Of a stretch of DNA of 10,858 nt, positions 1 to 10,858 are shown one piece after another. The notes under the pieces are model-generated. The model was not told where the DNA came from, made no database searches, and saw nothing but the letters and a program-made list of their open reading frames with translations. Both the position numbers and the translations under genes were made by a program. The stretch's first letter is position 1. Each line of letters starts with the position of its first letter. The DNA lies in assembly GCA_014859225.1 (NCBI GenBank), contig JACUUP010000042.1, positions 1 through 10,858 of the forward strand. Direction: 5' to 3'. This stretch comes from Candidatus Aerophobota bacterium (GTDB lineage Bacteria > Aerophobota > Aerophobia > Aerophobales > B3-G15).

Positions 1-932
1 TCATGAGCCAAAAGAAGAAAATTGTATTTTATGCTATTGGCATACCAAAATCCTGTAGTTTTACAGTTATGTTGTCGTTTAATAACAAGGTCTCTTAATT
101 TAAAGCCTGCATCTAAATAAATATTTATAAGTTTAAATCCTAAAGGAATCACATGTTTCTTCCTGCGCGTATCTCCTATCAAAATAGCACATTGTCTGCC
201 TGGTTTTAGCACTCTAAAACTATCTTTTGCAACTTTAGCCATTTCTTTTAAGAAAGCATCTATATCAAAAAATGATAAATCTCCTTCTTTGGAATCCGTA
301 TAATGAATAATGTTTGCATAAGGAGGATGAGCACAAATTAAATATATTGAGCTATCTTTTAAGAAAGATAAATCTCTGGCGTCGCCGACTGATAATCCTG
401 GTTCGTAAATCTTAAAATGGCTTTTTTCATCAATGAAACTTAACTGCTGAGATTCTATGCAAAAATCTACGTTTTTCTTTGCTAGTTCAATGGCTTTATC
501 GTTTATATCAAAGGCTATGCATCTTCTGCCTAAAAGTTTACATTCTACAGCAGTTGTTCCGGCGCCACAGAAATAATCCAAAACCAATTCATCTGGTCTT
601 GAATATTTGAGAATCAAATTCCTGGGAATATAAGGGGACCAATTGCCTCTGTACTCGCCGCTATGAGTGGCCCAACTCCCCCTTTGTTTAAAACTCCAGA
701 CTGTTGCTTGTTCTTCCTTAAAACGCCCTGGGTGGAGGTTTTTTATTTTCTTTGAAGCTTTCAAACTACTAATATTGAGCCCTTGTGTTTTCGTAACAAC
801 TCGTTCAATATACCGAAATGTAACACCATACATCTTACCAATTTCTAAATCTGGAGTCCCCTTTGCTTTTTCTTCTAATATTGCCTCTTCCAGCTTTTTT
901 ACCGTTTTGAAATTTACCTTTTTATTAGTCAC
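1..932 (-). CDS. Amino-DNA methyltransferase with N-terminal HTH-like segment, 3' end cut by window edge
   Basis: Partial gene: 310 codons are visible and the C-terminus lies beyond the left edge. The product should transfer a methyl group from S-adenosylmethionine to an exocyclic amino group of A or C in DNA. The AdoMet-binding motif I is DYFCGAGTT (residues 119-127), preceded by a motif X-like stretch (about 98-110) and followed by FDIN (141-144). The catalytic motif IV is HPPY (202-205), in place of the usual D/N/SPPY. Motif I precedes motif IV by about 80 residues, which suggests a gamma-like order. Residues 20-50 resemble a helix-turn-helix (DLEIGKMYGV). The start is GTG, because the same frame has TGA TAA just upstream and an AGAGGA Shine-Dalgarno lies 5 bases before it. 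The start overlaps the stop of a 27-codon ORF as GTGA. It is probably the modification gene of the cassette. The methyltransferase call is firm; base specificity and target site cannot be read. Confidence 0.9.
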   Translation of the reverse strand, partial: MTNKKVNFKTVKKLEEAILEEKAKGTPDLEIGKMYGVTFRYIERVVTKTQGLNISSLKASKKIKNLHPGRFKEEQATVWSFKQRGSWATHSGEYRGNWSPYIPRNLILKYSRPDELVLDYFCGAGTTAVECKLLGRRCIAFDINDKAIELAKKNVDFCIESQQLSFIDEKSHFKIYEPGLSVGDARDLSFLKDSSIYLICAHPPYANIIHYTDSKEGDLSFFDIDAFLKEMAKVAKDSFRVLKPGRQCAILIGDTRRKKHVIPLGFKLINIYLDAGFKLRDLVIKRQHNCKTTGFWYANSIKYNFLLLAH

Positions 933-1012
933 TGTATCCTCTTTTTATCAACCCAATGCAACATCGGTCGTCTTTTGGCAGGAGTGATTTTCAGCTTTTG
1001 CTCTTTGTTCAT
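929..1012 (-). CDS. 27-codon ORF, translationally coupled to the methyltransferase
   Basis: A short ORF fills the 86-base gap between the nuclease-like gene and the methyltransferase. It starts with ATG 6 bases after the upstream stop and ends in TGA overlapping the GTG start of the methyltransferase. The peptide is strongly basic and contains the stretch KITPAKRRPMLHWV. From memory, not from a search, a similar P-K-x-R-P-M-L-x-W-V stretch occurs near the N-terminus of some large site-specific DNA methyltransferases. This could therefore be a leader peptide that couples translation, a genuine small subunit, or the remnant of another methylase start. The only Shine-Dalgarno-like GGAG lies 12 bases upstream, inside the previous gene, which is rather far. 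Confidence 0.4.
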   Translation of the reverse strand: MNKEQKLKITPAKRRPMLHWVDKKRIQ

Positions 1013-1018
1013 TTTTTT

Positions 1019-2089
1019 TCAGTTCTCCATATTATCAAATAAAGTTGGTTCTACTTTCTTTGACAAATCTAAAGTTTCTGGTTTAAATTTATGTAGTTGT
1101 TTAAGAAATTCTTCATAGGTTTCTCTGTCTTTTAGATTAAAGATCCAACCTTTTTGAGGTTCGTAACTTATATTTTCTCTTATAGGTTCATTTAAACGGG
1201 TTTTTATCTCCATTAAGAAATCCTTAACTAATCTCCTGATATGCCTTTTTGCATCATTATCTTCCCAGATTTCATACATTCTAAAGGTTGCAGAATTCAA
1301 AAGTTCATCAGTTGTGAAGGTTACAGAAGTAGGGATGGTTGTTCCACCAATATTACTTATTACATAACTTAATATTCTTTCAAATAGAACTCTTCTGCAA
1401 AACTGCTGCTCTTGCTTTGTCTGATTTATATTGGGATCATAGGGGATAAAATATAAGGGACGGGGGTCTGTATCTTCTTCAAATTGTATAACTTTGATTG
1501 GCGATTTATCCATGAGATTCAAAAATCTTTTTGTTTTTTCAGGATATTCTAATATTATTTCTGATTGCGACGATCTTATTTGAAAACATCCATAATTTCC
1601 AGATTCAAGATTTGCTTTCTCTTTTATCCCTCTTTCAAGGTCTTCGAGAGTTCTCTCCATTAATTCAATATTATTGGGACCAATAAAATAACAAAGTATA
1701 CCCTTATTTTCTCCTCTTTTACCTATTGCTAATACTTCAGAAAGAACGGGACCTGCAATTAGTAACAAAGTCCTTGCTTGACTTGCAGCAGAAGAGTCAG
1801 AACCGAATGAAGATGATTTACACTCTAATACACAAAATTTCTTTTTCCCTTGTGTCTCGAGTATTAAATCGGGTCTTACAGCGTTCTGACAATTTATCTT
1901 TTCTGTAACTACAAGCCTTATATCAGGAGGTAAAGCAAGCAGAGGGCCTATAGAATAAATATTCAATCCCGATTTATAAAATAGAGGATAAATACAAGAG
2001 TATTGAGAAAGTTGCGGTTGAGCAAGCCAGATAGCCAGATTCAATTGAAATAAGGGGTCCTTACAGAGGTCATCAATATTCAGGTTCAT
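1019..2089 (-). CDS. PD-(D/E)xK nuclease-like protein, candidate restriction subunit
   Basis: A 356-residue soluble protein with no signal peptide or membrane segment. Residues 72-91 look like a PD-(D/E)xK nuclease core: RPDLIL gives P73-D74, and CVLECKSS gives E89-x-K91 after a 14-residue gap, inside alternating hydrophobic beta-like stretches. Residues 94-113 (S/A-rich, AASQAR) would be the helix that often follows this core. No family is recognised for the rest; the C-terminal third is charged and helical. The ATG has a good GGAG Shine-Dalgarno 6 bases upstream, and the gene overlaps the end of the 423-residue gene by 17 bases. Lying two genes upstream of a DNA methyltransferase on the same strand, it is the best candidate for the restriction nuclease. 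That role is inference: the core could instead belong to an inactive DNA-binding homologue. Confidence 0.6.
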   Translation of the reverse strand: MNLNIDDLCKDPLFQLNLAIWLAQPQLSQYSCIYPLFYKSGLNIYSIGPLLALPPDIRLVVTEKINCQNAVRPDLILETQGKKKFCVLECKSSSFGSDSSAASQARTLLLIAGPVLSEVLAIGKRGENKGILCYFIGPNNIELMERTLEDLERGIKEKANLESGNYGCFQIRSSQSEIILEYPEKTKRFLNLMDKSPIKVIQFEEDTDPRPLYFIPYDPNINQTKQEQQFCRRVLFERILSYVISNIGGTTIPTSVTFTTDELLNSATFRMYEIWEDNDAKRHIRRLVKDFLMEIKTRLNEPIRENISYEPQKGWIFNLKDRETYEEFLKQLHKFKPETLDLSKKVEPTLFDNMEN

Positions 2090-3344
2090 ATTTTACTCCT
2101 TTTGAAGATTCATCTACTATAGTCTTGTATTCAATATCTCCGATATATGCTTTTGCGGACGGGTCAATATATCTTTGAATGTTGCAAATGAGACGATGGA
2201 TTGTGTTTCCACAGGTTCCTTTAGGCACAATAGTAATCAAATGTTTATCTGTCAATTCAAGAAAAATAGGCTTCCACAAATGTTTATCTACTCCATAGAC
2301 ATGAACCTTCCTGGGTCCTAAAGCTATAGGATTGCCCCATAACCTGAAGCGGTTATTTATACGTCCAAAAGTTGATTTAATCCAGTAATCAAAAGTTTCT
2401 TTGCTTAAAGGTTCTTCAAATTTTATTGTTACAGGTGAGCCGATTAATTTTTGGAACTGACGCGGTATTGTCACAGTTTCTTTATATATTGAATACCAGG
2501 CTTTTTCCTCGGTCTTTTTCATCAGTTCGTCATATATGCGTAGAACATATAAAATATGAGACCTGTGGTCTCTGAAATTACCGCTTCTATTTGTAACTTT
2601 TCCATTATCATAAAAATCATGTCCTCCTCTTCCAACTGGCGATGGAAATCTTAGTTGGCTTATAGCATAAAGAGGTGAGTATAAATCTTGGAGTTTGCCT
2701 AACTTTTCCTGGACAATAGAAATCTTGTCTACTAACTTGAACTTAGATGCTCTTCTCTCAACAATTTCTATCACATCTCCTTCATCAAGGGATAAAGATA
2801 TTTCTTTATCTTCCTCATTCTCATCTTCATAGATTTCTGAGTCAATCTGGTATATACTCTCATGGACAAATAATATACTAACATATCTGTGAGGTTTGGT
2901 TAAGTAAGCTACTCTCTGCCATAACACATTGAAGGTTAGACCACTTAGCCATACATGGTCTAAATGTGATGAATTGAGAACAAGGTTTTTTACCCATTTA
3001 TCAGCTTTATCGCTAAGGTGAAGCGTGTAAAACACAAAATATCTCGGCGTGAAAACTTCAAGAAATCCCATATATTCTTTATTTTCTTTTGTATCTAACA
3101 CCCGATAAAGATTTTCGTCAATTTGTTCAGTTTCTACCTCTAATATTCCTAAAACCTCTGTTATTGTCTTCTGCATTCCAGTATCCCCCACATGTTCAAG
3201 CATATAACTTTTAACTAACGGACGCTTCATCTTTCGCTCATCTAGTTCTTCCATACGTTCTGCCGAATATCCATCTAAATATCGTATCATCTTTTCGCGT
3301 GAACCAATAGATTTTATCTCTTTTGAAATACCAATATCTGGCAT
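2073..3344 (-). CDS. Unknown 423-residue protein of the restriction-like cassette
   Basis: I do not recognise the family. The protein appears soluble, with a charged N-terminus (residues 1-60), a possible beta-rich domain at 88-165 containing HLDHVWLSGLTFNVLW (127-142), a very acidic linker (169-190), and a C-terminal domain (about 315-395). The C-terminal part is rich in residues that look conserved: FRLWGNPI (333-340), HVYGVDKHLW (348-357) and GTCGNTIHRL (376-385). No Walker A, helicase, HNH or PLD motif was seen. A TAGGAGG Shine-Dalgarno lies 5 bases before the ATG. The gene overlaps the nuclease-like gene by 17 bases, so the two are probably made in fixed proportion and may form one complex. 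It could be a DNA-recognition, sensor or effector subunit of the cassette; nothing in the sequence decides among these. Confidence 0.75.
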   Translation of the reverse strand: MPDIGISKEIKSIGSREKMIRYLDGYSAERMEELDERKMKRPLVKSYMLEHVGDTGMQKTITEVLGILEVETEQIDENLYRVLDTKENKEYMGFLEVFTPRYFVFYTLHLSDKADKWVKNLVLNSSHLDHVWLSGLTFNVLWQRVAYLTKPHRYVSILFVHESIYQIDSEIYEDENEEDKEISLSLDEGDVIEIVERRASKFKLVDKISIVQEKLGKLQDLYSPLYAISQLRFPSPVGRGGHDFYDNGKVTNRSGNFRDHRSHILYVLRIYDELMKKTEEKAWYSIYKETVTIPRQFQKLIGSPVTIKFEEPLSKETFDYWIKSTFGRINNRFRLWGNPIALGPRKVHVYGVDKHLWKPIFLELTDKHLITIVPKGTCGNTIHRLICNIQRYIDPSAKAYIGDIEYKTIVDESSKGVKYEPEY

Positions 3345-3359
3345 CTTTGCCTCCTAACT

Positions 3360-3387
3360 ATGATCTAAAAAGGTAAATCATTGTCAA
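3360..3387 (-). promoter_or_regulatory. Weak candidate promoter for the restriction-like cassette
   Basis: On the minus strand a perfect TTGACA (3387-3382) is followed after 16 bases by GATCAT (3365-3360), which matches TATAAT at four of six positions. Transcription would start almost at the Shine-Dalgarno of the 423-residue gene. The TTGACA lies inside the 26-codon reading frame, so it may be a coincidence of coding. No terminator hairpin was seen between mnhG (ending 3462) and this point, so read-through from the mnh operon is also possible. Confidence 0.25.
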
Positions 3388-3445
3388 GACTTTCTCCAGA
3401 ATCAAATTCTAATCTAATTAAAATCTTATTATTTTCATCCCCCAC
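3365..3445 (-). CDS. Possible 26-codon gene ending in an SSB-like acidic tip
   Basis: Between mnhG and the 423-residue gene a short reading frame starts with GTG, preceded by GGAG at the ideal distance of 6 bases. It ends in TAG 20 bases before the next start. The peptide is acidic and ends exactly in LDNDLPF. This resembles the C-terminal tip of bacterial single-stranded DNA-binding proteins (DDDIPF/DDDLPF type), which docks many DNA-repair enzymes. An ATG at 3457 in the same frame would add four residues but has no Shine-Dalgarno. There is an in-frame TAA about five codons before that ATG, so no longer SSB is encoded here. It may be a genuine small first gene of the operon, the 3' remnant of an ssb gene left at an insertion junction, or chance. 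Confidence 0.35.
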   Translation of the reverse strand: MGDENNKILIRLEFDSGESLDNDLPF

Positions 3446-3461
3446 ATATGGCTCCATAAGA

Positions 3462-3767
3462 TTAGTCTTTTACTTTCTTCCTTTTCCAGGGTATAACACC
3501 CCTTTCCCATGCATGTCTTCCTATTATATGAGAGGTGACAGGTCCTGTCACCAGAAAAAATAGGGCAATAAGCAGTATTCTACCCGTCATAGGAGTAAAT
3601 CCTTCAAGTAACATACAGGCTATAAATATTGAAAATAAAGAGGTGGTACTGCATTTTGAAGAAGCCTGCAGACGGGTATAAATGTCGGGAAATCTTAATA
3701 GACCAATATTGCCAAAGATACCAAAAAATATACCCAACCCCATAAAAAATTGCACTATCCACATCAT
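3462..3767 (-). CDS. mnhG: Mrp-type Na+/H+ antiporter subunit G
   Basis: A 101-residue membrane protein, normal length for MnhG/MrpG, a small subunit of the multisubunit Mrp cation/proton antiporter in the cytoplasmic membrane. The family signature is clear: G-x-I-G-L-L-R-F-P-D-I-Y-T-R-L-Q-A at about residues 20-36, two to three hydrophobic helices (about 5-25, 42-60, 62-82), and a basic C-terminal tail. The start overlaps the mnhF stop as ATGA, with GAGG 7 bases upstream. A second ATG directly follows and could be used instead. In many Mrp operons further subunits (B, C, D and an A-like piece) follow G. Here they do not, and the restriction-like cassette begins instead. Confidence 0.93.
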   Translation of the reverse strand: MMWIVQFFMGLGIFFGIFGNIGLLRFPDIYTRLQASSKCSTTSLFSIFIACMLLEGFTPMTGRILLIALFFLVTGPVTSHIIGRHAWERGVIPWKRKKVKD

Positions 3768-4039
3768 TCTTTGTCCTCTCTGCTTGCAGCGTGTCTTGCA
3801 ATTGCTAATATTCCAATGAAGCCTAATATTGCATAAACTAAAGCTACATCTAAATAAATAGAGCGATTATATTTTACCGCTATTAAAACAAGGATTGCTG
3901 AGATTTGAGCTAAAACAAGGTTAAGTCCAATCATTCTATCCTCAGAAGTTGGCCCGATAACCACTCTCACCATACTAAGCACAGAGATTCCCATGAGGAT
4001 AAAGATAACAATATCCAGGGTTAAAACTCTTATATCCAT
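3764..4039 (-). CDS. mnhF: Mrp-type Na+/H+ antiporter subunit F
   Basis: A membrane protein of 91 residues if translation starts at ATG 4039. That start has AAGGA about 5 bases upstream and overlaps mnhE by 10 bases. A GTG at 4054 would add five residues (MAKEN) and overlap mnhE by 25 bases, but I prefer the ATG because of its Shine-Dalgarno. The family motif V-I-G-P-T-x-x-D-R-M-I-G-L-N follows the first of three predicted helices. MnhF is a small integral subunit of the Mrp complex that works with MnhE and MnhG next to the ion-translocating large subunits. It overlaps mnhG by 4 bases, so these subunits are translationally coupled. Confidence 0.92.
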   Translation of the reverse strand: MDIRVLTLDIVIFILMGISVLSMVRVVIGPTSEDRMIGLNLVLAQISAILVLIAVKYNRSIYLDVALVYAILGFIGILAIARHAASREDKE

Positions 4040-4542
4040 ATTTTCCTTAGCCACATCTCAAAATGTCCTTTGATTAGCGAGCTGGCAAAGTGAGAGTGAG
4101 TTGTCTTTGCATTTAACCAGTGAACAATAAGGTGGTCCTCATCAAGGTCCAGAGTAATGGTTCCCGGAGTAAGACTGATAGAGTTAGCCAGAATTACTCT
4201 TGCCACATCAGATTTTAATCGGGTGCGAAAGTGGACGATGCGTGGATTTATGTTGCCTTTCATTACGCTAAAGACCATTTTAAAACTGGCAAGATAAATC
4301 TTAAAGAGTAAAACAAAAATGTATATGACAATTAAATATATATGGGGAAGCAAAGAACGCCGAGCAGCCTCTTTTTCCTCAATAAATATACTGTAGGTTA
4401 AAAGGGCAACCAAAAAGGAAAACATGCCGCCAAGAAAAAGGGAAAATAAAGCCAGGCTGCCGGTAAATAAAATCCAGCCTACCATAAGATAAAGGCTGGT
4501 AAGGATAATTCTTACTATTTTCCACTTTAAAAAAACATTCAT
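4030..4542 (-). CDS. mnhE: Mrp-type Na+/H+ antiporter subunit E
   Basis: A 170-residue protein, typical MnhE/MrpE length. It has three N-terminal hydrophobic helices (about residues 10-30, 33-53 and 66-88) and a cytoplasmic C-terminal domain. That domain carries the family hallmark S-I-S-L-T-P-G-T-I-T-L-D-L (about 121-133) followed by HLIVHWL. MnhE is a structural subunit of the multisubunit monovalent cation/proton antiporter, which exports Na+ (or K+) in exchange for protons. The start lies 3 bases after the stop of the EIIA gene, with GAAGG overlapping that stop as Shine-Dalgarno, so it belongs to the same transcript as the two regulators upstream. The order E-F-G is the normal one for the operon tail. 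Confidence 0.93.
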   Translation of the reverse strand: MNVFLKWKIVRIILTSLYLMVGWILFTGSLALFSLFLGGMFSFLVALLTYSIFIEEKEAARRSLLPHIYLIVIYIFVLLFKIYLASFKMVFSVMKGNINPRIVHFRTRLKSDVARVILANSISLTPGTITLDLDEDHLIVHWLNAKTTHSHFASSLIKGHFEMWLRKIWI

Positions 4543-4545
4543 TAT

Positions 4546-5016
4546 TTAACCTTCTTTTTCTTCCTGCTCTCTAAAAATTGTTACTACCTCTTCTTCTTTA
4601 GTCACTCTCATTAAAATCTCTTTAAATTGGGTATTGTGAAGAATGCGGGATAATTTGCAAAGAATTTTCAGGTGTTGGGATTCCTCTCCCTTGGGGCCGA
4701 GTAGAAGAAAAATGAGGTTAACAGGCTTTTCATCTATGGCATCAAATTCTAAACCCTCCTTTTTTCTGCCTAAAGCCATAACCGTTTGAGAAATCTCTTT
4801 ACTTCTGATATGGGGTATAGCAATTCCTCCTCCAATCCCCGTAGTTCCCTCTTTTTCCCTCTGGATGATTTCTTTTTCTATTTTGGGTGCATTTTTTATC
4901 TTGCCCGATTGGCAAAGAAGTTCAACCATTTCTCCTATAACTTCTTTTTTTCTTTTTGCATTTAGGTCAAGTTTTATATATTTGGGGTTGAGAAGCTCAG
5001 ACAATTTTAACATCAT
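4546..5016 (-). CDS. PTS EIIA protein, fructose/nitrogen (PtsN-like) type
   Basis: A 156-residue cytosolic single-domain EIIA (PTS_EIIA type 2). The phosphorylation site is H69 in GIGGGIAIPHIRS (60-72), preceded by the family's REKEGTTG (53-60). H115 in SQHLKILCKLSR is the second conserved histidine. Such stand-alone EIIA proteins usually act as phosphorylation-dependent regulators rather than sugar carriers; PtsN of proteobacteria acts on potassium transport. Its place directly before mnhE, and sharing one base (TAATG) with the PII-like gene, suggests that it controls the antiporter. No EI, HPr or permease gene is in the window. The first ATG is only 4 bases from the GGAGG; the second ATG (5013) has a 7-base spacing and may be the true start. 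Confidence 0.88.
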   Translation of the reverse strand: MMLKLSELLNPKYIKLDLNAKRKKEVIGEMVELLCQSGKIKNAPKIEKEIIQREKEGTTGIGGGIAIPHIRSKEISQTVMALGRKKEGLEFDAIDEKPVNLIFLLLGPKGEESQHLKILCKLSRILHNTQFKEILMRVTKEEEVVTIFREQEEKEG

Positions 5017-5357
5017 TATTCCTCCTCATGCCTCAATCCTTTGGCATAATCCACAGGGATTGTGAAGAGAATCCCTGTTCCTGGTTCGGATAAGTTACCG
5101 CATACTTTTTCTATAAGCTCCTCCAGTTTTTTTATTTTTTCTTCCTTTTTTATCACGGAGAAGATAGTTTTATTGTAAGGTTTGTTACCTCTCATAAATT
5201 CTCTAAAATCAGCAAAGAGGGGAACTTCGTAGGTGAGCATTCTACCCATCCCTTCCGAGTCAAGGATGGTTGCCCCTGGGATTCCCGCTTCTACAAATGC
5301 TTCCATAACTTCTTCCAGCAACTCTTCTCTGTTCAGTACAAAAACAAGTAACTTCAT
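5016..5357 (-). CDS. PII-like (GlnB-fold) signalling protein
   Basis: A 113-residue cytosolic protein of PII-like length. An early strand (MKLLVFVLNR, 1-10) is followed by GIPGATILDSEGMGR (25-39), which matches the GATV-x-D-S-x-G-MG stretch of PII proteins. The end has GTGILFTIPVDYAKGL (93-108), like the PII C-terminal nucleotide-binding strand. The T-loop region (40-65) is not that of GlnB, and the uridylylated tyrosine is not evident. PII-like proteins bind adenine nucleotides or related ligands and often sit beside the transporter they regulate. The start chosen is ATG 5357, with an AGGGGGGG Shine-Dalgarno 8-9 bases upstream. The frame is open 19 codons further, but that part runs into the promoter region. 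It is the first gene of the operon with EIIA and mnhEFG. Confidence 0.75.
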   Translation of the reverse strand: MKLLVFVLNREELLEEVMEAFVEAGIPGATILDSEGMGRMLTYEVPLFADFREFMRGNKPYNKTIFSVIKKEEKIKKLEELIEKVCGNLSEPGTGILFTIPVDYAKGLRHEEE

Positions 5358-5385
5358 TGTGCGTGCCCCCCCTATTCTTAGCTTA

Positions 5386-5414
5386 AAATTACAATATCTT
5401 GGGGTTAAAGTCAA
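5386..5414 (-). promoter_or_regulatory. Candidate promoter of the PII-like/EIIA/mnhEFG operon
   Basis: On the minus strand TTGACT (5414-5409) is followed after 17 bases by TAATTT (5391-5386). The -35 box is good and the -10 box is weak (three of six). Transcription would start near 5379, giving a leader of about 20 bases with the G-rich Shine-Dalgarno. The -35 box is one arm of the inverted repeat at 5408-5427. Confidence 0.4.
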
Positions 5415-5427
5415 ATTGTATTGACTT
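5408..5427. repeat. Inverted repeat AAGTCAA-N6-TTGACTT in the divergent promoter region
   Basis: A perfect 7-base inverted repeat with a 6-base spacer sits midway between the PII-like gene and mgtE. Each arm is also the -35 box of one of the two divergent promoters. It may be an operator that controls both units together, or simply two back-to-back promoter boxes that look palindromic because both match TTGACT. Confidence 0.5.
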
Positions 5428-5449
5428 AAGGGGTTATGTATGCTATTTA
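5421..5449 (+). promoter_or_regulatory. Candidate promoter of mgtE
   Basis: TTGACT (5421-5426) is separated by 17 bases from TATTTA (5444-5449), a weak -10 box. Transcription would start near 5456, leaving about 13 bases before the mgtE start, just enough for the AGGAG site. There is no room for an Mg2+-sensing M-box leader, so control would have to act at the promoter or on the protein. Confidence 0.4.
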
Positions 5450-5468
5450 TTTGTTTTTAGGAGATAGT

Positions 5469-6830
5469 ATGGAGAAAATATATTCAAGAGTTTATCTGGT
5501 CTTGCCTGAGATAAAGCAGCTTCTTTTAGAAAGAAAAAAAGATGAGCTAAAAGAGGTTTTTGAAGATTATGAACCTGTAGAGGTAGCACAGGTTTTAAAA
5601 GATTTTTCTTTGAAGGATAAAGTTTATCTTTTCTCTTTGTGGGGCATTGATTTTGCTGCCGATGTCTTTGAGAAATTAGATGAGGAAGAGCAGATAGAGC
5701 TTTTAGGGGCAATTGATGATGCAAGAAAGGGTAAACTTTTAAATGAGCTTGCTCCTGATGAGAGGGTAGATCTTTTTGAAGAACTTTCCCCGGAGATGGT
5801 AAAAAGGTTCCTCTCCATAATGACAAAAGAAGAGGCACAGGAAGTAAGGGAGCTGCTTGCATATCCTTCCACCAGCGCCGGGGGAAGGATGACCACAGAG
5901 TTTGTTAGTGTAAGGGAGGATATGAATGTGGATGAGGCACTTAAGATACTCAGGAAGACGGCAAGAGACATTGAGATGGTCTACTACATCTATGTGCTTG
6001 ATAGAAAAGATAAACTCGTAGGCGTTTTGTCATTAAAAGAGCTGATTACAGCAGAGCCTGAGGATAAAATATCTGACCTGATGCATATAAATCCCATCGC
6101 TCTTCCTGTGGATATGGACCAGGAAGATGTGGCACACAGAATAGCAAACTACGATTTTTTATCCCTGCCGGTTGTTGATAAGAATAGAAAGATGCAAGGC
6201 ATAATCACAGTTGATGATGTTATTGACATTATAAGGGAGGAGAACACAGAAGATATGTATAAATTTGGAGCAGCGGGTGAGCATAGCGAAGGTTATGTGA
6301 AAGTAGGCTCTTTAACTATTGCTAAAAATAGACTCACCTGGTTGACTGTGCTGGCTGTGGCTGGTTTTTTCTCTGGAATTATAATGCAGAGATTTGAGTT
6401 TGCGCTTGAAGGTGTTGTCGCTTTAGCCTTTTATATACCTGTCTTAATGGATACTGCAGGCAATGCAGGAACTCAGGCGGCGATGACAGTTGTGAGGGGA
6501 CTTGCCATAGGAGAGGTTAAATTAACTGATATATGGAAGGTAGTAAAAAAGGAGGTTCTTATTGGAGGACTTCTTGGAATCCCCCTGGGGGGGCTGGGTT
6601 TCTTAAGAGCCATAATGCTTCAGAGAAGCTCTCTGCTTGGAATTTCTGTTGCCTTCAGCATGTTAATAACTATTATGGCTGCCACCTCCCTTGGTTCAAT
6701 TTTACCGCTCCTTTGCCGGAAAATAAAACTTGACCCTGCCGTTGTATCCGGTCCACTTATTACGACAATTCTTGATATTTTTTCTTTATTTGTTTATTTC
6801 AGCGTGTCAATTTTCTTCTTAAGCCTGTAA
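5469..6830 (+). CDS. mgtE: Magnesium transporter MgtE
   Basis: A 453-residue MgtE, normal length for this Mg2+-selective channel of the cytoplasmic membrane. It has the N-terminal helical MgtE_N domain (about residues 20-128), then two CBS domains (about 140-258) that sense cytosolic Mg2+, a connecting helix, and five transmembrane helices (about 285-452). Signatures are SAGGRMTTEFVSV (136-148), PVLMDTAGNAGTQ (324-336) and DPAVVSGPLITTILD (422-436); the last aspartate corresponds to the pore aspartate of the family. The start is ATG 5469, with AGGAG 6 bases upstream. An upstream ATG at 5436 would add 11 residues, lies within the promoter and lacks a Shine-Dalgarno. The gene diverges from the PII-like/EIIA/mnh operon, which groups divalent and monovalent cation transport in one locus. 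Confidence 0.96.
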   Translation: MEKIYSRVYLVLPEIKQLLLERKKDELKEVFEDYEPVEVAQVLKDFSLKDKVYLFSLWGIDFAADVFEKLDEEEQIELLGAIDDARKGKLLNELAPDERVDLFEELSPEMVKRFLSIMTKEEAQEVRELLAYPSTSAGGRMTTEFVSVREDMNVDEALKILRKTARDIEMVYYIYVLDRKDKLVGVLSLKELITAEPEDKISDLMHINPIALPVDMDQEDVAHRIANYDFLSLPVVDKNRKMQGIITVDDVIDIIREENTEDMYKFGAAGEHSEGYVKVGSLTIAKNRLTWLTVLAVAGFFSGIIMQRFEFALEGVVALAFYIPVLMDTAGNAGTQAAMTVVRGLAIGEVKLTDIWKVVKKEVLIGGLLGIPLGGLGFLRAIMLQRSSLLGISVAFSMLITIMAATSLGSILPLLCRKIKLDPAVVSGPLITTILDIFSLFVYFSVSIFFLSL

Positions 6831-6866
6831 TTTTTTCTGAATACCTCTTATTTTCCACAGATAGTA

Positions 6867-6894
6867 TTGATTAAAGAGCATTTTTTTGTACAAT
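6867..6894 (+). promoter_or_regulatory. Candidate promoter of valS
   Basis: TTGATT (6867-6872), a 16-base spacer and TACAAT (6889-6894, five of six) form a reasonable sigma-70-like promoter. The expected start of transcription is near 6901, giving a leader of about 33 bases. That is too short for a T-box, and no terminator hairpin was seen between mgtE and this site. Confidence 0.5.
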
Positions 6895-6934
6895 GTGATT
6901 TGTAAATTTATTAACATTGAAAGGTAATGTAGTT

Positions 6935-9595
6935 ATGGAGATGGAAAAAAAGTACAATCCGCACCCCATTGAGGAAAAATGGGAAAGCTTCTGGGAGGAA
7001 AAAGATTATTTTTCGCCCCACCCCGGGAAAAGAAAAGAAACTTTTTCCATGGTCATGCCTCCTCCTAATATAACTGGAGTTTTGCATATGGGGCACGCTT
7101 TTAATATTACACTGCAAGATATTGTAGTCAGGTTTAAGAGGATGCAGGGCTATGAGGTTTTGTGGATTCCAGGGATTGACCATGCCGGAATAGCTACGCA
7201 GAATGTTGTGGAGAGGAAGTTGCAAAAAGAAGGGTTTACCAGGGAAAAGTTTGGTAGGGAAAAGTTTATAGAAAGAATCTGGCAGTGGAAGGAAAAATAT
7301 GGGGAGCGTATATTTCATCAGATGAGAAAATTTGCCATATCTTGCAGCTGGGAAGATAAGGCATTTACCATGGATGAGAGCCACTCAAGGGCAGTTAGAG
7401 AAGTTTTTATTGCCCTTTATGAACAAGGATACATCTACAGGGGTGATTATATTATCAACTGGTGCCCAAGATGCCAGACGGCTCTTTCTGATATAGAAGT
7501 GGAATATGAGGATTTTCCCGGAAAGCTCTACTACATTAGATATCCTTTCGTAAATTCTAAAACAGAGGATAAAAATTATATTACAGTTGCTACAACAAGA
7601 CCTGAGACCATCCTGGGTGATACTGCGGTAGCGGTTAATCCTGAAGATGAAAGGTACAAAAAATGGAAAGGGAAAAAACTCGTTCTTCCCCTTGTCGGAA
7701 GAGTTTTGCCCCTTATTTTTGATGAATATGTTGACCCTGATTTTGGCACAGGGGCTTTAAAAGTAACTCCTGCTCACGATACCCAGGATTTTTTAATAGG
7801 CAAAAGACACAATCTTGCCTTGATTAACATATTTAACAAAGATGCAACTATAAATGAAAAAGGAGGCATTTATCAGGGCTTTGAGCGTTATAGGTGCAGG
7901 AAGAAAATTGTAGAGGATTTAAAAAATGAAGGTTGTTTAGAGAAGATGGAAGATTATACCTACAGGCTTGGACGCTGTTACCGCTGTGAAACTTCTATTG
8001 AACCTTTCCTTTCTACCCAGTGGTTTATCAGGATGAGAGAGCTTGCTGAAGATGCCATTGGAGTGGTTAAGGAGGGAAAAATAAAGTTTTATCCTGAATG
8101 CTGGGAAAGAAACTATTTTGATTGGCTGGAAAAAATCCATGACTGGTGTATATCAAGGCAGATATGGTGGGGGCATCGATTGCCCGTATGGTATTGCCAG
8201 GACTGTGGTGAAATAATAGTTACAAGGCAAGAGCCTACCAGATGTAAAAAATGTTCCTCGTCTAAGATAAAGCAGGAAGAAGATGTCCTTGATACCTGGT
8301 TTTCCTCAAGCCTCTGGCCTTTCTCTACTCTGGGCTGGCCTGAGGCAGGGGAAAAGTTTAACAGGTTTTACCCCACATCTCTTTTGTGCAGTGGTTGGGA
8401 TATCTTGTTTTTCTGGGTAGCCAGAATGGTTATGATGGGGATTAAGTTTACCCATAAGGTTCCATTTGAAAAAGTGCATATACATCCTCTCATTGGTGAT
8501 GAAAAAGGAGAGAAGATGTCAAAATCCAGGGGTAACGTGGTAGACCCCATAGATATGACGAAAAAATATGGGACAGATGCCTTTCGCTTTTCCCTCGTGG
8601 CTTTAAAGACAGAAACTCCCTATCTTCGTTTTTCTCCGGATAGGGTGAGAGGTTATCGTAATTTTGCTAATAAAATATGGAATGTTTCTCGCTTTGTTTT
8701 GATGAACATTGGTGATTTTTCTCCTTCTAACTTAACTCGTGCTCTTTCTTCTAATAAGCTTCAGCTCTGTGATCGCTGGATTTTATCAAGATGTAGAAAA
8801 AGCGTGAAAGATGTTACCTTGCATCTTGAAACCTTTGAATTTTCCCAGGCTGCCCAGAGAATTTATCAGTTTATCTGGCAGGAGTTTTGTGACTGGTATG
8901 TTGAGCTCACCAAGTCAAGATTAAGGAAGGAGGGCGGGGAAGATAGATACATTGCTCAGGCTGTTCTTTACCAGGTGTTAAGGGAAAGTTTGAAACTTCT
9001 GCACCCATTTATGCCCTTTATAACGGAAGACATTTTTCAACGCCTGCCCGGAACAAAAGAGAGCATCATGATATCCAACTGGCCAGAGGGAGAAGGAGGG
9101 GAGGATAAGGAGGCTGAGGAGAAGATGTCGCTTCTTATGGAAATTATTGTGGAGATACGCACTATCAGAGCAGAGATGGAAATTCCTCCTCAAAAGAAAA
9201 TAGAAGTTATTTTGCGCACTAAAAGTCCTGAGCATATGAGGATATTGAAAGAAAACTCATCTTATATTACGGACCTTGTTCATGCAGAAAATTTAGTGAT
9301 AGCTTCTGATGTAGAAAGACCAAAAATTTGTGCCTCGGGTATAGCAGGTGATATAGATGTATTTGTTCCCCTAAAAAAAGTAGTTAATATAGAGAAGGAA
9401 AAGAAAAGGCTTTATAAAATTTTTGAAGATATAGAAAAAGAGCTTGAAAGGACTGAGAAAAAGCTTACATCTGGCGAGTTTTTACAAAAAGCTCCTGCAG
9501 AAGTGGTGGAAAAGGAGAAAGAAAAAAAGGCACAGCTTATTTTAAAAAGGGATAAATTGAAGAAAAGATTAAAGGAACTAACTTTATCGTTATGA
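6935..9595 (+). CDS. valS: Valyl-tRNA synthetase
   Basis: An 886-residue class I synthetase that charges tRNA-Val in the cytosol, of full bacterial length. The HIGH motif is HMGH (51-54) within PPNITGVLHMGHAF, and KMSKS is at 527-531. The CP1 editing domain, which hydrolyses mischarged Thr-tRNA, is marked by TTRPETILGDTAVAV and GTGALKVTPAHDTQDF. A zinc-ribbon pair is intact (C421, C424, C437, C440), and further CPRC and CYRC pairs lie upstream in the editing region. The anticodon-binding domain covers about 610-760, and the last 70 residues form the charged coiled coil typical of ValS. The chosen ATG has AAAGG about 10 bases upstream; a TTG at 6917 is in frame but sits before that site. The stop overlaps the next start by 4 bases (ATGA). 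Confidence 0.98.
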   Translation: MEMEKKYNPHPIEEKWESFWEEKDYFSPHPGKRKETFSMVMPPPNITGVLHMGHAFNITLQDIVVRFKRMQGYEVLWIPGIDHAGIATQNVVERKLQKEGFTREKFGREKFIERIWQWKEKYGERIFHQMRKFAISCSWEDKAFTMDESHSRAVREVFIALYEQGYIYRGDYIINWCPRCQTALSDIEVEYEDFPGKLYYIRYPFVNSKTEDKNYITVATTRPETILGDTAVAVNPEDERYKKWKGKKLVLPLVGRVLPLIFDEYVDPDFGTGALKVTPAHDTQDFLIGKRHNLALINIFNKDATINEKGGIYQGFERYRCRKKIVEDLKNEGCLEKMEDYTYRLGRCYRCETSIEPFLSTQWFIRMRELAEDAIGVVKEGKIKFYPECWERNYFDWLEKIHDWCISRQIWWGHRLPVWYCQDCGEIIVTRQEPTRCKKCSSSKIKQEEDVLDTWFSSSLWPFSTLGWPEAGEKFNRFYPTSLLCSGWDILFFWVARMVMMGIKFTHKVPFEKVHIHPLIGDEKGEKMSKSRGNVVDPIDMTKKYGTDAFRFSLVALKTETPYLRFSPDRVRGYRNFANKIWNVSRFVLMNIGDFSPSNLTRALSSNKLQLCDRWILSRCRKSVKDVTLHLETFEFSQAAQRIYQFIWQEFCDWYVELTKSRLRKEGGEDRYIAQAVLYQVLRESLKLLHPFMPFITEDIFQRLPGTKESIMISNWPEGEGGEDKEAEEKMSLLMEIIVEIRTIRAEMEIPPQKKIEVILRTKSPEHMRILKENSSYITDLVHAENLVIASDVERPKICASGIAGDIDVFVPLKKVVNIEKEKKRLYKIFEDIEKELERTEKKLTSGEFLQKAPAEVVEKEKEKKAQLILKRDKLKKRLKELTLSL

Positions 9596-10557
9596 AAATA
9601 ATGGATATAGATAAAAAACCATCTTATTACCAGGTTAGCGCATCTGAGGATGTGCAAATTGGGGGACAGGCAGTAATTGAGGGAGTTATGATGCGCTCCC
9701 CTCAATATGTGAGCATTGCGCTGAGAAAAAGCAATGGAGAGATTGTCGTAAAAAAAGATGCCTTTGTCCCTTTAATCAAAAGATATAAATTTTTAAACCT
9801 TCCCATTATAAGAGGGGCAATTACCCTTGTGGAAACGCTATACATAGGGATAAAAGCTTTAACCTATTCTGCCGATATTGCTGCTCAGGAGGATTTGGAA
9901 GGGGAAGAGAGCTCAAAAGAGGTTAAAAAAGAAGATGCTCTCAGGAGCAAAAAAGAAAAACTTTTCACTACCCTCTGGCTTTCTTTAAGTATAGCACTTG
10001 GAGTCTTTCTTGCTCTTTTTCTTTTTTTCTATCTTCCCTTAGTTCTTACAGACCTTCTGAGAGTTAAAGCAGGGTATTTATTTAACATAGTTGATGGCAT
10101 GATACGAATATCCATTTTTCTTGTTTATCTTTGGCTTATCACGATGTGGAAGAGTATGAGGAGGATATTTGAATATCATGGGGCAGAGCACAAAAGCATT
10201 TTTGCCCTGGAAAGAGGAGAAGGTCTAACTGTAGAAAATGTTAAAAAATACTCCACCCATCATCCCCGCTGCGGGACAAGTTTTCTTTTGATAGTTATGC
10301 TGGTAAGTATCGCAATTTTTATGTTTGTTGGAAGACCACACACAATACAGGAAAGACTCATCAGACTTCTTTATGTTCCTCTTATTGGAGGAATATCGTA
10401 TGAGCTCATTAAACTCTCAGGGAAAAAAGCTACCAATCGCCTGGTAAGAGCGCTTGTTGCCCCGGGACTCTGGCTTCAAAGAATGACCACCAAGGAGCCG
10501 GATGATAAACAGCTTGAGGTAGCAATAGTTGCCCTGAAAAGCTCCCTGGAGAAGTGA
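9592..10557 (+). CDS. DUF1385 membrane protein (YqhQ-like)
   Basis: A 321-residue protein of the DUF1385 family, whose biochemical function is not established. Family signatures are GGQAVIEGVMMR (24-35), HGAEHK (196-201) and HPRCGTS (224-230), giving a set of histidine, glutamate and cysteine residues that could bind a metal (inference). Hydrophobic segments lie at about 127-150, 168-188, 231-250 and perhaps 258-275, with a charged loop at 99-123, so it is an integral membrane protein without a cleaved signal. It overlaps valS by 4 bases and is probably translated by coupling. An ATG three codons later (9601) is also possible. In several bacteria this family lies near prfA and rpmE; those genes are not seen here. 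Confidence 0.92.
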   Translation: MKIMDIDKKPSYYQVSASEDVQIGGQAVIEGVMMRSPQYVSIALRKSNGEIVVKKDAFVPLIKRYKFLNLPIIRGAITLVETLYIGIKALTYSADIAAQEDLEGEESSKEVKKEDALRSKKEKLFTTLWLSLSIALGVFLALFLFFYLPLVLTDLLRVKAGYLFNIVDGMIRISIFLVYLWLITMWKSMRRIFEYHGAEHKSIFALERGEGLTVENVKKYSTHHPRCGTSFLLIVMLVSIAIFMFVGRPHTIQERLIRLLYVPLIGGISYELIKLSGKKATNRLVRALVAPGLWLQRMTTKEPDDKQLEVAIVALKSSLEK

Positions 10558-10585
10558 AGTATAAGAGACTTTATTTCCTCCTTAT

Positions 10586-10619
10586 TTGACATCTACTTTT
10601 ATTCTTTTATAGTTATAAT
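10586..10619 (+). promoter_or_regulatory. Strong promoter with two -10-like boxes before the coiled-coil gene
   Basis: A perfect TTGACA (10586-10591) is followed after 16 bases by TATAGT (10608-10613, five of six) and directly after that by a perfect TATAAT (10614-10619, spacing 22). The first pair has the better spacing. This is the best promoter in the window and separates the last gene from the valS-DUF1385 unit. The leader would be about 40 bases. Confidence 0.65.
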
Positions 10620-10658
10620 TGACTGTTGATTTTTTATCTTTCTTTAAGGGAGTGAAAA

Positions 10659-10858
10659 TTGCCAGAGACTAACAACAAAATAACTCCAGAGCTATACAGG
10701 ACTATTGTAGCCATTGTTGATGAGAGAGTGAAAGAGATTCGTGTAACAAGTAAAGATTTTCACGAGTTAAGAGATGCAGTGAAAGAGTTAGCCGGGGCTC
10801 AGGCAAGGACAGAGCAGGCAGTAGAAAGACTGAGCCAGGCTCAAGCAGCAACAGAGAA
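10659..10858 (+). CDS. Coiled-coil protein with 14-residue repeats, start only
   Basis: The first 66 codons of a gene cut by the right edge. The start is TTG, chosen because AAGGGAG lies 6 bases upstream; the GTG inside that site reads only six codons to a stop. After about 50 residues (ITPELYRTIVAIVDERVKEI, then a helical region) the protein enters a repeat, AQARTEQAVERLSQ followed by AQAATE. This layout resembles bacterial proteins with long AQ-x-RTEQ coiled-coil repeats, many of which end in a PD-(D/E)xK nuclease-like domain (DUF3782-type). That C-terminal part is not in the window, so the assignment is by resemblance only. Confidence 0.75.
   Translation, partial: MPETNNKITPELYRTIVAIVDERVKEIRVTSKDFHELRDAVKELAGAQARTEQAVERLSQAQAATE
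10797..10858 (+). repeat. 42-base tandem repeat inside the coiled-coil gene
   Basis: The first unit spans 10797-10838; the next begins at 10839 and is cut by the edge. Both start GCTCA(G/A)GCA and code for AQAxTE, so the unit is 14 codons. Only about one and a half copies are visible, so copy number is unknown. Confidence 0.6.

Follow-up and report, generated by a model that had tools for sequence, protein, structure and literature searches.

Defence modules in which a nuclease acts with a partner protein are, in general, already known, and TBP-like folds are common among nucleic-acid-binding proteins. The toxin-antitoxin defence pair RnlA-RnlB (RNase LS) is encoded by a two-gene operon, and some relatives of RnlA contain a TBP-like domain (PMC3710099). 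In TOTE/TALON, a TBP-type protein is paired with a PD-(D/E)xK nuclease (PMC12458937). Systems of the DUF499/Hma kind are described as relatives of BREX that carry extra nucleases (PMC12839542). The present locus holds two adjacent genes, here called A and B, which share features with each of these. The pair is most likely undescribed: apart from two unnamed PHROG clusters, the libraries searched offer no named family for it. Judged from sequences and structural models, it would be, with a probability of roughly 60%, a horizontally mobile two-protein nuclease module which defends against viruses or plasmids.

The window, ie the whole stretch of DNA that was analysed (10,858 nucleotides), is apparently the entire contig C123 (bases 1-10858) of a fragmented genome of 1.8 Mb in 273 contigs. 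All the features discussed lie on the minus strand. Gene A (2073-3344, 423 aa) matches no named family and is predicted to contain tandem TBP-like folds. Gene B (1019-2089, 356 aa) is predicted to consist of a PD-(D/E)xK nuclease domain and a C-terminal winged-helix-like part. It starts inside the end of A, the overlap being 17 nt, and a good Shine-Dalgarno sequence (aggagg) precedes the ATG of A. Six nucleotides separate B from a 27-codon frame (929-1012), which overlaps by 4 nt the gene for an N6/N4 DNA methyltransferase (3-932). On the other side of A, after a gap of 20 nt, is a 26-aa frame (3365-3445), followed by mnhE, mnhF and mnhG (3462-4542), a host operon which would form the left edge of an inserted island. 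The overlaps and gaps described in the first-pass annotation are real and lie where it had put them, but two of its four or five frames are tiny, and neither of these is supported as a gene. Their sequences mark A and B as genuine genes and not as frames open by chance: both have homologues across Bacteria and Archaea, and both are under purifying selection, with dN/dS values of 0.12 (A) and 0.18 (B) against the nearest relative, locus L018.

Gene B was found directly 3' of A, on the same strand, in all 27 distinct full-length loci, which come from Bacteria and Archaea and are mostly 20-40% identical. This set comprises plasmid loci, loci of the genome collection and further genomes obtained by profile search. 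At most of the junctions there is a small overlap, so that stops and starts are coupled; the large apparent overlaps at L021, L091 and L112 are probably due to start calls set too far upstream. The trees of A and B agree, their distance matrices being correlated with r = 0.85, a value reached by none of 2000 permutations. A profile of B gave a single match per record in 18 genomes or records bearing A, except for G023, where the second match is partial and adjoins a fragmentary second A on contig C21. A and B are thus a strict two-gene unit. The 27 loci and the congruent trees bear out the first-pass proposal in so far as the 423-residue protein is an obligatory companion of the PD-(D/E)xK protein.

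The genome collection yielded homologues of A at 16 loci, in Bacillaceae, Stahlbacteria, Anaerolinea, Rubrobacter, Planctomycetota, Methanoperedens, Altiarchaeales and other groups, and further homologues are carried by plasmids of Metabacillus, Lysinibacillus, Halobacterium hubeiense and Methanocaldococcus jannaschii. Wherever A was full-length at these genome-collection or plasmid loci, the next gene was a homologue of B. The unit is rare, often lies on plasmids and is patchily spread, with occurrences in 1 of 398 Bacilli, in 5 of 400 and 22 of 392 members of two phylum samples, and in 4 of 19 members of the phylum to which L018 belongs. The window and L018 are 83% similar in DNA sequence over 2361 columns, and the similarity sets in 10 nt before A and does not go beyond the stop codon of B. 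Most likely, the A-B unit moves horizontally between bacteria and archaea. Phage records searched with P0003, P0006 and P0008 gave no match, and viral contigs scanned with P0004 and A11 gave no confirmed match. One viral contig (L007/L027) carries an internally deleted copy of A without B; the same contig encodes a methyltransferase with an apparent internal intein (L007:1405-3618). At L111:8529-10917, A is broken into two frames and B is intact, and genes for an SNF2-type helicase and a type IIG-like methyltransferase adjoin.

The methyltransferase of the window was identified by Pfam, NCBIfam and PADLOC (N6_N4_Mtase; MTase_II, 6e-83), in agreement with the amino-DNA methyltransferase named at first pass. 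Its reading frame is still open at base 3, at the edge of the contig, and 310 aa are visible. The copy is evidently cut by the contig end, as its full relatives in the sister genomes G005 and G015, to which it is 81% and 64% identical, have 535 and 484 aa, respectively. A shorter relative occurs in Fusobacterium vincentii (53%). Full-length relatives lie at L140:4109-5716 and L141:3873-6485, and in L141 the methyltransferase is followed by a 376-aa gene which could be its own nuclease.

The gene order in the window lends itself to a three-gene restriction-modification system in which the methyltransferase protects, B cuts and A is an obligatory third subunit, as the first-pass annotation had proposed. 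L018 also has a methyltransferase after B, and same-strand methyltransferases occur nearby in L019, L023 and L094. However, the majority of A-B loci have no adjacent methyltransferase on the same strand, and where there is one the family differs. L018 has a 648-aa Mod after B and an 878-aa Res-like helicase before A, giving the order Res-A-B-Mod; L019 has a methyltransferase-helicase fusion, L023 and L094 a DUF1156-type enzyme, and L111 the type IIG-like enzyme upstream of A-B. Moreover, gene A was not found in G005 or G015, both of which carry the window-type methyltransferase, and the similarity between the window and L018 breaks off precisely where B ends. The only other place where the three kinds of gene stand in a row is L018, whose methyltransferase is of another type. 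Since the three genes of the window were not found together elsewhere, which was the test named in the first-pass annotation itself, the three-gene system is unsupported, and we consider it very improbable. The methyltransferase is an optional neighbour outside the A-B unit, and its reading as the partner of A-B is hereby corrected. Assignment to type II restriction-modification was rejected because a cognate linked methyltransferase is absent from most relatives and varies in family elsewhere. Type III was rejected as well: Res and Mod both flank A-B only in L018, and in the window no Res adjoins A, and Mod is represented by a stub that resembles it. That stub is the 27-codon frame, MNKEQKLKITPAKRRPMLHWVDKKRIQ, which resembles the N-terminus of the type III-like Mod of L018, MPENKIKVTTATGRPMLHWVGKK, and is probably what remains of a lost Mod gene. 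The likeness suggests that an ancestral order A-B-Mod may have been broken in the window.

The protein encoded by B carries the residues P73, D74, E89, K91 and Q104 of the PD-(D/E)xK motif; all of these except D74 are invariant in an alignment of 15 relatives. Its model (pLDDT 90) matches PD-(D/E)xK nucleases over residues 1-200, with a best Z of 8.0; the matches include BsmI, NucS/EndoMS, AF1548, FokI and Can2. The C-terminal part of the model resembles winged-helix domains weakly. The window copy has no convincing match in Pfam, NCBIfam or PADLOC; three members of the family match HSDR_N_2. Motif and model together place B in the PD-(D/E)xK superfamily, as a predicted nuclease with its motif intact, as had been suspected at first pass. 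A divergent archaeal clade (L095-L108) has an A of about 345 aa with C-x-N in place of CGNT. The gene that overlaps A downstream in this clade has PD...E-L-T, not E-x-K, and is only marginally related to B by profile comparison (probability 58, E 1e-4). The replacement of E-x-K by E-L-T suggests that catalysis may have been lost there. In L096 and L107, which belong to this clade, A is followed only by short frames.

Gene A had no convincing match in Pfam, NCBIfam or PADLOC, and the 423-residue protein that could not be placed at first pass still has no family there. Neither A nor B matched a profile of PADLOC 2.0.0 (2023, and thus preceding systems named later) at E values up to 1. Solved structures, searched by sequence with A and B both singly and as profiles, yielded no meaningful match. 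The model of A (pLDDT 80) best matches CENP-L over residues 15-277 (Z 8.1, rmsd 4.8, 196 residues), and residues 302-407 best match AdoMetDC, CENP-N and TBP (Z 5-7). The best Foldseek E value was 1.6e-3, and values of this size occur among unrelated models. A search of a viral fold library returned weak matches only, several of them to TBPs, and there was no match of A to Pfam TBP. Taken together, the models weakly suggest that A consists of tandem TBP-like folds. RnlA, RdgC, AdoMetDC and CENP-L are not claimed as relatives of A, because these matches in the fold lists are weak. Eleven residues are kept in nearly all full-length A proteins (K45, E50, R101, D129, W132, T251, D353, H355, C378, N380 and R384), and the conserved residues persist in the divergent archaeal clade.

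A nuclease with a putative nucleic-acid-binding partner and no obligate methyltransferase would also fit type IV-like restriction, in which cleavage by B would be confined to DNA bearing a foreign modification read by A, making a protecting methyltransferase unnecessary. The frequent position of A-B beside modifying restriction-modification systems, which is typical of type IV enzymes, points the same way. However, A has no modification-reader domain known in Pfam, and no modified base is specified by the sequence; we regard this explanation as unlikely. The structural neighbours themselves allow another role, namely DNA repair or the maintenance of mobile elements in place of defence, since those of B include the repair nucleases NucS and Hjc and those of A include RdgC. 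Plasmid locations, and the several loci with no defence neighbour, are compatible with such a role, but the very patchy distribution and the repeated nearness to restriction-modification and related genes in bacteria make it quite unlikely.

The neighbours of A-B, several of which were named by eye, support the suggestion of the first-pass annotation that the genes may be of a restriction or defence type. Relatives are often near type I, II or III restriction-modification genes, Hma/BREX-related genes or Tn7 cargo: type I restriction-modification with Tn7 tnsABCD in L011, EcoRII with an m5C methyltransferase in L012, type I restriction-modification in L013, DUF499/DUF1156 genes in L023, an HmaB-like methyltransferase with a helicase immediately upstream of A in L094, and an OLD-type nuclease, EVE and VapC in L009. 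No obvious defence neighbour was seen around A-B in L016, L017 and L021. In L017 only, a gene assigned by eye as nucleotide-cyclase-like (5445-6056) shares one base with the start of A. In a matched comparison of archaea, 84 PADLOC families were counted near A-B and 63 in control stretches; the two are not clearly different, and the inference of defence was therefore not based on PADLOC tallies.

In six Bacillaceae loci (L005, L011-L015) a PemK/MazF-like gene lies about 150-220 nt upstream of A; that of L011 is at 7054-7782 (PF02452). Together with the overlapping two-gene operon, the plasmid locations and the TBP-like domains of RnlA-type toxins (PMC3710099), this third gene is in keeping with a toxin-antitoxin or abortive infection system, in which a toxic nuclease B is restrained by A and released on infection. 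A, however, matches B in size and conservation and has many invariant polar residues, which is unusual for a plain antitoxin, and the explanation seems to us rather unlikely.

The edges of the island can be followed in part. In seven relatives mnhE, mnhF and mnhG, which belong to a Na+/H+ antiporter operon, run straight into further mnh genes. Here those further genes are on contig C235 (L008), so that the operon is split between C123 and C235. The other end of C235 carries an internally deleted copy of the window methyltransferase gene (L008:3978-5045), followed by a gene whose 256-aa product contains the motif EVEETT and has homologues annotated as type II restriction endonucleases. The simplest reading of these sequences is a single island inserted after mnhG, with its edges on C123 and C235, which would have split the mnh operon.

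On the reading preferred here, that of a mobile two-protein nuclease module, the proteins A and B would act together, and the overlap of their genes suggests that their translation may be coupled. A would recognise or sense a feature of nucleic acid and hold or activate B, and B, as a predicted nuclease, would cut DNA. As there is no obligatory methyltransferase, the module is not classical restriction-modification. Self could be told from non-self by the target of A (a foreign modification, a structure or a replication intermediate), or B could be activated only upon infection. In some lineages the unit appears to be docked beside type III-like Res/Mod, Hma/BREX-related genes or a DUF6094 methyltransferase-helicase, and the Bacillaceae would add the PemK/MazF-like gene. 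A defence role is likely from the sequences and their surroundings. The more specific proposal of an undescribed antiviral system of Bacteria and Archaea, free of methyltransferase, in which A, with tandem TBP folds and a distant likeness to the kinetochore protein CENP-L, would recognise the nucleic acid of the invader and license the nuclease B, is tentative and less likely than not.

The pair was not found described in a literature search which covered open papers and few preprints. Like RnlA-RnlB, A-B is a two-gene operon, but its effector is a separate PD-(D/E)xK protein, and a HEPN domain was not seen in A or B. As in TOTE/TALON, conflict systems marked by a TBP and a TPR-CSD gene, a putative TBP-type protein is paired with a PD-(D/E)xK nuclease; A-B differs in that A fails to match Pfam TBP and in that it has two genes, a helicase not being obligate. 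Stand-alone restriction endonucleases occur among the genes of BREX-related (DUF499/Hma) systems as auxiliary effectors, and in L023 and L094 A-B lies within or behind genes of the DUF499/DUF1156 type. Most copies, however, are unattached to such systems, and the pair is not named in the available sections of the source (PMC12839542). The predicted domains of A are like those of CENP-L/Iml3, RdgC, RnlA, AdoMetDC and TBP (TBP-like/helix-grip, Z 5-8), from which A differs in having its own invariant residues and no sequence similarity that could be found. With the PD-(D/E)xK superfamily (BsmI, NucS/EndoMS, AF1548, HSDR_N_2), B has in common, over residues 1-200, the fold and the pattern P-D/E...E-x-K...Q; it differs in having no named sequence family, in its added winged-helix-like C-terminus and in always being paired with A. 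Among PHROG profiles, phrog_22469 matches A, and phrog_27163 matches archaeal members of B and not the window B; both clusters are listed as of unknown function, with no description of A-B. The unit is small, occurs even in Methanocaldococcus jannaschii and haloarchaea, and is unnamed in Pfam, NCBIfam and PADLOC (2023). If it does protect against phage, it would be a compact nuclease module which works without self-methylation, and phrog_22469 and phrog_27163 would gain a function.
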